IMG/VR virus record: IMGVR_UViG_3300043775_000685
Span: 1 to 26,869 of that record
DNA length: 26,869 bases
Reading direction: 5' to 3' (one strand)
Origin: a virus
A program made the position numbers and the translations under genes. Below the pieces are notes generated by a model. The model saw only the letters and a list, made by a program, of their open reading frames with translations, did no database searches and was not told the origin of the DNA. Positions within the stretch are counted from its first letter, which is position 1, and each line of letters opens with the position of its first letter. This document shows, piece by piece, positions 4,704 to 26,139 of the stretch.

Positions 4704-5690
4704 ATGAATATAGTTTTTTTTGTCCACGCTTGGGCAGGGACGCACAACTCAGGAGCCGAGTGGACCGTACAGCATTACGCCAAATATTTTAACCAAAGAG
4801 GTTGCAGTATTGAGGTAATTTTACCCGAAGGCCAAATTTATCCCGATGGTGAAAAGTTTGCGTTTATCAAGTTTATTACTGGCTATTATTCAAACGACTT
4901 TTTTCTAGCCTTACAAAATGCAAGCGTAATATTTACGCATTTGGATAATACAGGCGTTGCGATTAACTGGGCAAGGCAATTTAAAAAGCAATTGATTTTT
5001 TTAAGCCACAACGATTCAGATTATAGGAACGTCAGATTTAAAGCGCAAAATATTCACGTCGTTTATAACAATAAAGCAAACGAAAAGAATGTACAAAACG
5101 GCGCTTATCCAAACGCTTCCATTGTCTGCAAGCCTCCAATTTTTCCTGAGGACGTAAAATATAACCGAAAGCATGGGCAGTATATTACCCTAATTAACTG
5201 CAACGAAAACAAAGGTGGTCAGATATTAATTGAACTTGCCAAGCGATTGCCTAAGCGCAAATTTCTTGGCGTTCTTGGAAGCTACGGCGAGCAAATAATT
5301 GACGACACCTTAAAAAATTTAAAGTACGTGGCCCAAACGCCTGACGTTCATTTAATTTATGGCAAAACAAATATTGTGCTTGTGCCTTCATTTTATGAGT
5401 CTTATGGACGTGTAGGCTTAGAGGCGGCTATTAACAGGCTGCCAGTAATATGCACTCCAACGGACGGATTGAAGGAATGTCTTGGACCTGCTGGCTTGTA
5501 TTTTGACCGTGACGACCTTGACGGAATGGCTGCTAAAATTGAGGAGTTGATGAGCGACGAAATTCTTTACGACTTCCACCAAAACATTATGCGCAACCTT
5601 GCCGAGGAGCGTCTTAAATACCAAGACCAAGAGTTAGAAAGATTCTTTAATTTTATTGTTGACAAAGCAAAGAAACCATACAATGAGTGA
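4704..5690 (+). CDS. Glycosyltransferase family 4-like (GT-B) protein
   Basis: A 328-residue retaining GT-B glycosyltransferase resembling GT4. The N-terminal acceptor domain starts MNIVFFVHAW with NSGAEW (15-20), matching the GG/SGAE loop of the family. The C-terminal donor domain has INCNENKGG (164-172), LGSYGE (191-196) and the signature PSFYESYGRVGLEAA, where E232 and E240 form the E-x7-E motif. No membrane segment or signal is seen. It lies after the capsid terminator and before the connector gene, which it overlaps by 8 nt. It is a second, unrelated glycosyltransferase inside the head module. Substrate and acceptor are unknown; modification of a virion protein is the most economical guess from position, but it is only inference. 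Confidence 0.87.
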   Translation: MNIVFFVHAWAGTHNSGAEWTVQHYAKYFNQRGCSIEVILPEGQIYPDGEKFAFIKFITGYYSNDFFLALQNASVIFTHLDNTGVAINWARQFKKQLIFLSHNDSDYRNVRFKAQNIHVVYNNKANEKNVQNGAYPNASIVCKPPIFPEDVKYNRKHGQYITLINCNENKGGQILIELAKRLPKRKFLGVLGSYGEQIIDDTLKNLKYVAQTPDVHLIYGKTNIVLVPSFYESYGRVGLEAAINRLPVICTPTDGLKECLGPAGLYFDRDDLDGMAAKIEELMSDEILYDFHQNIMRNLAEERLKYQDQELERFFNFIVDKAKKPYNE

Positions 5691-24829: not shown

Positions 24830-25191
24830 CACGCGAGGAAATTATAACCGAACTTAACCACCGCGCAACGCAAAAGTATTTAGTATACTTGGCACTTCAG
24901 GAAATAATGCTGGATTACTACGAGGACGTGACTATGCTTAAAGCATTTGACGTAAACCTAAGGACTAAGCATAAAAACATGATTAACGCGCTTAAAAGAA
25001 AGTCTACTGAGGCGTTTAGATTTCTTGAAAATTACGACGGCGGTGAGGTAACAATTAGACAGTTTCACGAGTTTGTTACTTTGTTTGAACGCCTCCACAA
25101 TTCGATTGACCAAGGTGGCAATCTATTCCACGACTGCTTGTCAGCAATTGAACAAATTTTAAACGACTATGAGGGGACGAAATCTAACTGA
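24826..25191 (+). CDS. Unknown 121-residue helical protein
   Basis: Almost entirely helical: TREEIITELNHRATQKYLVYL, EIMLDYYEDVTMLKAFDVNL, MINALKRKSTEAFRFLENYD and VTLFERLHNSIDQGG. No known motif; it starts with a 4-nt overlap after the HTH gene. Possible regulatory partner of that gene. Confidence 0.66.
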   Translation: MTREEIITELNHRATQKYLVYLALQEIMLDYYEDVTMLKAFDVNLRTKHKNMINALKRKSTEAFRFLENYDGGEVTIRQFHEFVTLFERLHNSIDQGGNLFHDCLSAIEQILNDYEGTKSN

Positions 25192-25318
25192 ATATCAAAA
25201 AGAATTAATCTTTGAAGCTTGGCAAGACCGAAAGCCAATTAAGGTAATTGCTATGGAAATGGGCCTGTCTTATGGTTGCATTTATTTTCAACTAAAGAAG
25301 CGTTGCCTCGTTGGATAA
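25169..25318 (+). CDS. 49-residue helix-turn-helix protein
   Basis: A short frame overlapping the previous gene by 23 nt: MRGRNLTEYQKELIFEAWQD, then PIKVIAMEMGLSYGCIYFQLKKR. The pattern E-x-I-F-E-A-W, I-x-x-I-A-x-x-M-G-L-S-Y-x-x-I-Y is a complete helix-turn-helix of the kind seen in small phage sigma-like or terminase-small-subunit-like proteins. Its 3' end contains the -33 element of the next promoter. Confidence 0.6.
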   Translation: MRGRNLTEYQKELIFEAWQDRKPIKVIAMEMGLSYGCIYFQLKKRCLVG

Positions 25319-25338
25319 ATCGAAAAGATTTATATTTG
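25311..25338 (+). promoter_or_regulatory. Consensus Bacteroidota promoter before a structured RNA
   Basis: TTG at 25311-25313 and TATATTTG at 25331-25338, with a 17-nt spacer, match the Bacteroidota consensus exactly. Initiation about 7 nt downstream would fall at or next to 25345, where the first hairpin arm begins. Confidence 0.85.
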
Positions 25339-25344
25339 TGTATC

Positions 25345-25430
25345 GAATCATTCCTGAGGTGAGAGGCAAGAATGATTCCATAGGTTAAATTAACCTGCCC
25401 CGACAGACTCTCACCTGTTGGGGTTTTTTA
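25345..25430 (+). ncRNA. Predicted structured small RNA or leader with kissing loops
   Basis: Hairpin 1: GAATCATTC (25345-25353) pairs perfectly with GAATGATTC (25370-25378), 16-nt loop. Then the palindrome at 25382-25396 and a terminator hairpin (25398-25423). AGGTGAGAG in loop 1 (25357-25365) is exactly complementary to CTCTCACCT (25408-25416), seven of whose bases lie in the terminator loop, giving a loop-loop kissing interaction. A consensus promoter ends 7 nt upstream and a T tract follows. It is either a separate RNA of about 85 nt or an attenuating leader of the gene starting at 25435. I do not recognise it as a named family. Confidence 0.72.
25382..25396. repeat. 15-bp palindrome, possible operator
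   Basis: AGGTTAA-A-TTAACCT is a perfect inverted repeat around the A at 25389. It lies between the two RNA hairpins. It may be a short RNA hairpin or a DNA site for one of the small helix-turn-helix proteins encoded just upstream. Confidence 0.5.
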
Positions 25431-25434
25431 TTTT
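25398..25434 (+). terminator. Intrinsic terminator directly before the DUF6291-like gene
   Basis: CCCCGACAG (25398-25406) pairs with CTGTTGGGG (25415-25423) over nine pairs including one G-T, with the loop ACTCTCAC (25407-25414), followed by TTTTTTATTTT. The T tract runs into the start codon at 25435, so the gene needs readthrough or antitermination to be transcribed from the promoter at 25311. Confidence 0.9.
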
Positions 25435-26139
25435 ATGGAAGGGAAAAAATCATTTGTACTTTATACGGACCAAAGAGAAGTCTTTGAAGAGCTTGACGAC
25501 GAGCAAGCTGGAAAGTTAATTAAGCATATTTTTAGCTACGTTAACGACGAAAATCCTGAGGCCGAGGACAAGTTTGTGCGTCTTGCCTTCCTGCCAATTA
25601 AGACCCAGCTTAAAAGGGACCTAAAGATTTGGGATGAAAAAAAGCATTTAAGAGTTGAAGCTGGTAAAAAAGGAGGTCTAGCAAAAGCTAGCAATGCTAG
25701 AATTGACCTAGCAAATCCTAGCAATGCTACAAATTCTCTAGCAAACGTAGCTGTTAATGTAAATGGTAATGTTAATGTAAATGATAATGTTAATGTAAAT
25801 GGTAATGTAAATAAACAAATAAGCGCTGGCGCACTTTTTTCTTTGGAGGAGGTCTTTATTGATTTTAAAAAAGAAAAGCCTTTAAAGAGACCGTATATTG
25901 AGCGAATGGCCCACGTGCATTCGATAGATAATTTAACAGTTGAAAAGCTATTTGAAAAATGGGCAGTTTTAAAAGAAGGTGAAAGCATGACCATAGCCAA
26001 GGCGGAAAATAGTTTTAATCTTTACCTTGCCAACAATTTAAAAACCAGCTACAAGCCACCTGAAAAGTCAAAAACTTACAACGTATTTGACGAACTTTAT
26101 GAGGATTTACAAAAACAAAAACACCAAAATAATGAATGA
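25435..26139 (+). CDS. DUF6291-like replication-associated protein
   Basis: A 234-residue protein. The N-terminal domain (KSFVLYTDQREVFEELDDEQ, AGKLIKHIFSYVND, AFLPIKTQLKRDLKIWDE, then AGKKGG) has the look of DUF6291, found in replication regions of Bacteroidota phages. A low-complexity linker follows: LA-x-x-SNA repeats (residues 82-105) and an asparagine/valine run (106-127). The C-terminal part (SLEEVFIDFKKEKP, then RPYIERMAHVHSIDNLTVEKL) is helical. The linker is encoded by phased DNA repeats that look like an origin. A role like an initiator or helicase-loading protein is inference; the N-terminal family call is moderate. The start codon directly follows a terminator T tract, with no A-rich leader. 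Confidence 0.72.
   Translation: MEGKKSFVLYTDQREVFEELDDEQAGKLIKHIFSYVNDENPEAEDKFVRLAFLPIKTQLKRDLKIWDEKKHLRVEAGKKGGLAKASNARIDLANPSNATNSLANVAVNVNGNVNVNDNVNVNGNVNKQISAGALFSLEEVFIDFKKEKPLKRPYIERMAHVHSIDNLTVEKLFEKWAVLKEGESMTIAKAENSFNLYLANNLKTSYKPPEKSKTYNVFDELYEDLQKQKHQNNE
25678..25752 (+). repeat. Three phased 30-bp direct repeats (iteron-like)
   Basis: CTAGCAAA occurs at 25678, 25708 and 25738, exactly 30 bp apart. In the first two units a CTAGCAATGCTA follows 10 bp after the start (25688 and 25718); the third unit continues as CGTAGCTG. Repeat length equals about three helical turns and the half-units lie one turn apart, so all sites face the same side of the helix. This is the arrangement of initiator-binding iterons. 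Confidence 0.8.
25753..25815 (+). repeat. 18-bp AT-rich tandem repeats (possible DNA unwinding element)
   Basis: Three copies of GTTAATGTAAATGGTAAT (25753-25770, 25771-25788 with one change, 25789-25806), then a partial copy. The strand shown has no C at all across the tract. It directly follows the 30-bp repeats, as an AT-rich unwinding element follows iterons in lambda-like origins. It also encodes the Asn-Val run of the protein. Confidence 0.8.

Follow-up and report, generated by a model that had tools for sequence, protein, structure and literature searches.

Putative self-recognising leader RNAs with covarying kissing loops upstream of replication genes in Bacteroidota phages

In ColE1 (RNAI/RNAII) and in pT181-type attenuation, replication is controlled with allele specificity through the kissing of loops of ~7 nt, carried by two RNAs that are transcribed from opposite strands. 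Copies of the phi29 packaging RNA, which belongs to the context of DNA packaging, can be joined by 4 bp between two of its loops that are complementary to each other. In P4, an RNA derived from the leader, CI, pairs with sites in that leader and stops transcription of the replication genes of P4 itself, and in Gifsy-1 a single promoter gives rise to both a terminated short RNA, IsrK, and a read-through mRNA on which the short form acts (both PMC4825925). The P4 CI RNA arises by processing of a transcript that is not translated, and its pairing involves two flanking sites.

The locus described here lies in a 26,869-nt stretch of viral DNA (IMG/VR record IMGVR_UViG_3300043775_000685, positions 1 to 26,869; hereafter, the window) and encodes a predicted RNA in which the loop of a 5' hairpin is complementary to the loop of the intrinsic terminator of the same RNA. 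Unlike in ColE1 and pT181, both loops lie in one RNA, and no antisense promoter was seen in an unsystematic look. The presence of complementary, covarying loops within one phage RNA is shared with the phi29 packaging RNA, but here the RNA precedes replication initiators and not packaging genes, the match spans 7 bp as opposed to 4, and the molecule carries an intrinsic terminator. As with the P4 CI and P1 C4 RNAs, a phage leader RNA is complementary to its own leader ahead of replication genes, a likeness of analogy only; the difference is that one terminated RNA is predicted to pair, loop to loop, with the terminator loop itself, and no lysogenic use is expected here, as no PF00589 integrase was found in ten contigs of 27-41 kb. 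RF01695, the Rfam C4 family (P4 CI RNA/P1 C4 antisense RNA), gave no match at its gathering score and was absent from the Rfam matches up to an E of 10. The Rfam trpB motif (RF04312) also has a 5' hairpin followed by a terminator, but its weak match of 28 bits is below the gathering score of 59 and the listed consensus structure marks no loop-loop pair; no Rfam family exceeded its gathering score for the RNA. The combination of a terminated leader and a read-through mRNA is shared with IsrK, but IsrK switches translation on, and a kissing-loop terminator is not described for it in the excerpts of PMC4825925. Neither the P4 CI RNA nor IsrK is homologous to the RNA described here, and the portion of the literature that was covered yielded nothing on kissing terminators in Bacteroidota phages. 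The features of the locus, in window coordinates, are as follows.

25169..25318, + strand: small upstream ORF of 49 aa with weak helix-turn-helix similarity (PF13518, E 0.01, below cut-off)
25311..25338, + strand: Bacteroidota-type promoter (TTG at 25311-25313, 17 nt, TATATTTG at 25331-25338)
25342..25429, + strand: predicted RNA of ~88 nt, with its ends (the inferred transcription start and the last base of the T-tract) set by the promoter and terminator positions
25345..25378, + strand: HP1, the 5' hairpin, with loop AGGTGAGAGG at 25357-25366
25359..25365, + strand: kissing strand 1, GTGAGAG, in the HP1 loop, covarying with and the exact complement of 25408-25414
25382..25396, + strand: HP2, the middle hairpin, AGGTTAAATTAACCT (AGGTTA-AAT-TAACCT), from folding
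25398..25429, + strand: HP3, the intrinsic terminator hairpin, with the T-tract at 25424-25429
25408..25414, + strand: kissing strand 2, CTCTCAC, in the terminator loop, covarying with the HP1 loop
25435..26139, + strand: downstream gene, DUF6291 (PF19808), replication-initiator-like, with relatives annotated 'replication protein'

The promoter claimed in the first-pass annotation is present at 25311-25338, though its motif occurs with the same spacing three times in the window against 0.93 expected, making it unremarkable taken alone. The hairpins claimed alongside it agree with the coordinates: the outer stem of HP1 comprises 9 bp (25345-25353/25370-25378), followed by one C.A mismatch and two more pairs, the 15-nt palindrome corresponds to HP2 (25382-25396), and HP3 has a 9-bp stem (25398-25406/25415-25423) closing the 8-nt loop ACTCTCAC (25407-25414). 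A 9-nt match between AGGTGAGAG (25357-25365) and CTCTCACCT (25408-25416) had also been proposed and exists, but only seven of the nine bases lie inside both loops, GTGAGAG in HP1 being complementary to CTCTCAC in the 8-nt terminator loop, and the last two bases (CT, 25415-25416) belong to the terminator stem. The 9-bp extension into this stem is not conserved in relatives and was rejected as a feature. A covariance model of the family matches the window at 25341-25434 with 106 bits, and the downstream ATG, at 25435, lies 11 nt past the start of the T-tract.

Relatives were collected by a DUF6291 protein search, which returned 53 IMG/VR loci, supplemented with contigs recovered by the exact pattern of the window's loops, still more by looser patterns and a wider set by a covariance model built without the loop-loop pair. 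The RNAs were located by promoter, HP1 arms and T-tract only, and the loops were defined by folding. Most of the 53 DUF6291 loci have the same promoter, hairpins and terminator upstream of the gene, with different loops. The IMG/VR relatives contained 68 distinct RNAs of this sequence family, falling into two subfamilies, and the middle helix is predicted in the folds of all 68. Loci picked independently of the loop match contributed 53 of the 68, with the caveat that several contigs share samples of origin, leaving independence incomplete.

All 68 distinct RNAs possess an exact loop-loop match of 7-8 nt, distributed across seven loop variants (GTGAGAG, GTAGGAG, GTAGCAG, GTGGTAG, GTGGAAG, GTCGGAG, and GTCGCAG), and the sole row without a match was a chance regular-expression match lacking structure. 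In the collected loci, a pattern that imposed nothing on the three central bases of either loop gave 97 matches, all of them complementary and representing four variants. Loops swapped between different variants had mostly 3-5 nt of complementarity, and those swaps that did match over 7-8 nt were rows in which one core stands under two labels (e.g., GTAGGAG and GTAGGAGT). Some neighbouring variants differ by one compensated pair, namely GTGGTAG (L036) versus GTGGAAG (L156) and GTCGGAG (L135) versus GTCGCAG (L034). Covariation was scored on a sequence-only, structure-blind MAFFT alignment of 19 RNAs, in which the HP1 columns are 98% paired, with four pairs changed on both sides, and the columns of the loop-loop pair (the kiss) are 96% paired, the misses coming from one shifted row. 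Both partners have changed in seven pairs of this alignment, which scores 0.447 for covariation versus 0.177 for shuffled alignments, with the covariation collapsing for slid versions of the pairing. The kiss is confined to both loops in all variants, and the two main subfamilies show almost no variation in the GT and AG at its ends or in the AGGT before HP2. The presence of G-U pairs in HP1 points to a structure of RNA rather than DNA. Compensatory change in the hairpin arms and in the loop-loop pair, which the first-pass annotation had proposed to look for in relatives, was thus found, and the outcome it held to be incompatible with its reading, relatives that keep the genes and lose the hairpins or the loop match, did not occur. 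On these comparisons, pairing of the two loops at the RNA level is strongly supported and appears very nearly certain.

A de novo detector that looks for a terminator hairpin and an upstream hairpin with complementary loops, using no knowledge of sequence, returned 150 matches (146 of at least 7 nt) in 3.75 Mb of collected loci, which are enriched for the family, and a single weak match (6 nt) in 1.25 Mb of shuffled sequence. Together with the folding z of -3.4 for the window stretch, this agrees with the initial claim that matching loops are very unlikely by chance. The detector also identified, in other phage contigs, RNAs of the same architecture that are seemingly unrelated in sequence. 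A second group of phages (class-3, contigs G302-G305) has two such RNAs per contig, the first of which, with loop GGTGCAAG, precedes an HTH_36 initiator-like gene; this loop recurs elsewhere in its contig, but in unrelated contigs too. The gene behind the second RNA varies from contig to contig (DNA methylase, DUF4326, or HNH/helicase, assigned by eye), and the loop of this RNA is GTAGCAG, GCACTAC, AGTAGAGGT or GTTGAGGTT, each with an exact partner, such that two different loop variants occur in one genome. A further version, GTAGGAC, is found in L181 on the same backbone as the GCACTAC of L180, and L109 has two more RNAs that match the architecture. In the contigs that were read, a TAnnTTT-type box precedes the unrelated-sequence RNAs by a few bases, and the terminator stem is followed after 10-17 nt by an ATG.

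The RNA occupies the interval from the promoter to the start of a coding sequence, which in most cases specifies a replication initiator; these initiators are of several unrelated kinds. The genes that follow it encode DUF6291, Lin1244_N (DUF4373-like), DnaD-like, small HSDR_N_2-like, or HTH_36 proteins, and four of these five types have relatives in cultured phages annotated as replication proteins. Across the downstream-gene types, the ATG usually lies 7-18 nt past the T-tract start, and no TAnnTTTG box was found between the terminator and the ATG in any of the RNAs counted, all of which had been selected for a TAnnTT[TC] box upstream. With the RNA placed between promoter and gene, no message can reach the gene from that promoter except by reading past the terminator.

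Several other properties of the region were noted. The 3' end of the 49-aa upstream ORF overlaps the -33 region, ending inside the promoter, and a similar upstream end recurs in relatives; its product could be a regulator. The promoter spacer contains a palindrome (ATAAATC-GAAAA-GATTTAT, 25316-25332), which was considered as an operator and rejected, being poorly conserved, with perfect inner arms in 12% of relatives versus 3.6% when swapped. A leader peptide was likewise dismissed, an AUG within HP1 occurring only in subfamily 2. Inside the DUF6291 gene (25677-25812), CTAGCAA-type iteron-like repeats with a 30-nt period (2.3 copies) are followed by AT-rich 18-nt repeats (TGTTAATGTAAATGGTAA, 3.4 copies), an array resembling a lambda-O-style origin inside an initiator gene. 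The DUF6291, Lin1244_N and DnaD-like proteins share a near-identical C-terminal tail (NVFDELYEDLQKQKH..NNE; window 26075-26139 and the downstream genes of L059 and L072) and have unrelated N-termini, as if the initiator front alone had been exchanged. Elsewhere in the window, two ORFs among the structural genes (2045-2623 and 4704-5690) have translations that appear, by eye, glycosyltransferase-like.

The loop variants are distributed in a manner that suggests frequent replacement. The window and L007 share 94% identity on both flanks of the RNA and 57% within it. The gene tree of DUF6291 has at least 18 changes of variant compared with a minimum of 4, and some of these changes must be exchanges of the whole RNA; many may be whole-RNA exchange and not stepwise compensation. 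Five variants occur with DUF6291, five with DnaD-like and three with Lin1244_N genes, and several variants occur with more than one downstream-gene type. The behaviour of the swaps suggests that specificity itself is under selection. The 9-nt loop of the window has no other copy in its contig, suggesting self-recognition, and a trans target in the same contig was rejected accordingly.

Outside of the collected phage contigs, weak model matches occurred in 36 of 299 Flavobacterium genomes, the loci of the 30 best-scoring genomes having only AT-rich matches of 5-6 nt and no kiss. Plasmids gave no DNA match. No convincing example was seen in the cultured phages 11b and 6H, in the parts of Cellulophaga phi10:1, crAss001 and elemoC that were covered, or near the replication genes of tant8-1 and P2559S. 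In Flavobacterium phage 11b (33630-33729, equivalent to L055 2709-2808), a promoter, hairpin and terminator precede a DUF6291 gene, with a weak model match of 17 bits; the loop of the hairpin, CGGGCAGG, has its complement, CCTGCCCG, on the 5' arm of the terminator, so that pairing there would compete with the terminator.

The best explanation, and a reasonably probable one, is that the RNA acts as a leader that attenuates the downstream gene through its kissing loops, besides releasing an RNA of ~88 nt. As a transcript must cross the terminator to arrive at the gene, the position makes an attenuator or leader role the simplest reading; an intrinsic terminator lies between promoter and start codon, with no further match to the promoter box ahead of the gene. 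The first-pass annotation had offered a self-kissing or dimerising small RNA or an attenuator, both of which gain support from the covariation and are compatible with each other, and the placement from promoter to start codon favours an attenuator or leader that yields a short RNA. A host-type early promoter would produce a short leader folding into HP1, HP2 and the terminator, with exactly 7 bp formed between the terminator loop and that of HP1. The majority of transcripts would end at the terminator, freeing the ~88-nt RNA, and the replication or other early gene would be expressed by regulated read-through only. The loop-loop contact may tune the frequency of termination, rendering control allele-specific, and would be expected to stabilise the terminated form; the freed RNA may additionally pair with nascent leaders of the same variant, imposing negative feedback on replication. 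No competing antiterminator hairpin was recognised by folding of the stretch or in relatives, and a kiss that extends beyond neither loop could apparently coexist with the terminator hairpin instead of competing with its stem. A strong early small RNA with incidental low read-through would look similar.

The likelihoods attached to the attenuator and to its rivals overlap, since dimeric and trans-acting modes can coexist with attenuation. In rough A-form geometry with the stems closed, an intramolecular kiss at 120 degrees or more is attainable in only 1-3 of the 68 RNAs, the linkers usually being too short, which leaves an opening of HP2, a sharp bend in the kiss or dimerisation of two RNAs. 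The terminated RNA could itself be the product, as a kissing homodimer in which HP1 of each copy engages the terminator loop of its partner, the gene being a mere neighbour on read-through; a two-fold dimer would need no long linker reach, and the window's loop has no other target in its contig. Nonetheless, the geometry is crude, an opened HP2 or a bent kiss would allow a monomer, and a free-standing RNA would not have to lie directly ahead of a gene whose ATG adjoins the T-tract, and we regard this reading as unlikely. Somewhat less doubtful, though still on the unlikely side, is a trans-acting immunity or incompatibility RNA with the logic of P4 CI, which would pair with the nascent leader of a co-infecting phage of the same variant and force termination before the replication gene. 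The hypervariable cassette between near-identical flanks, the many variant changes on one gene tree, the shuffling of variants among downstream genes and the two different variants in one class-3 genome are all in keeping with such a role, but cassette shuffling is also a product of ordinary mosaicism, pairing within the molecule may leave the loops unavailable, and, given the lack of PF00589 integrase in the ten contigs, lysogenic immunity is unlikely.

Another rival is a riboswitch or a leader bound by protein, with an aptamer shaped by the loop-loop contact. The usual riboswitch layout of promoter, compact fold, terminator and gene speaks for it, as does the near invariance of the GT/AG kiss ends and of AGGT in the two main subfamilies; such a leader is nevertheless improbable, as the RNA has no large conserved unpaired core, the architecture is kept in sequence-unrelated versions, nothing in Rfam matches at the gathering score and no described riboswitch model fits. 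That the RNA is an ordinary promoter and terminator with hairpins kept by common descent and an accidental loop match gains some plausibility from the commonness of two-hairpin terminators, of which the weak Flavobacterium matches, without a loop match at the checked loci, are examples, but it is contradicted by loops that co-vary in every variant and by unrelated RNAs that share the loop-loop feature, making it extremely improbable. A wider proposal, tentative and rather unlikely, is that these RNAs represent a widespread phage class with sequence-unrelated versions, in which a 5' hairpin reads the RNA's own terminator loop and allele-specific kisses serve both as orthogonal self-recognition switches on replication genes and as trans-acting RNA incompatibility between co-infecting virulent phages.

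Returning to the kissing-loop attenuator, the covariation of the loops and their repeated swaps are indicative of a self-recognising switch of a new type acting on early genes of phages. The covariation of loops can uncover structured RNAs in uncultured phages for which Rfam has no family. If the proposed role is true, the loop pairs would constitute a naturally occurring orthogonal set, and the RNAs would be well suited to studying how termination is altered when a tertiary contact is made with the terminator loop. Bacteroidota phages would govern their replication genes by a self-recognising RNA, with a specificity that resides in ~3 base pairs and is exchanged in the manner of a cassette, and RNA-based exclusion between phages would occur without lysogeny.
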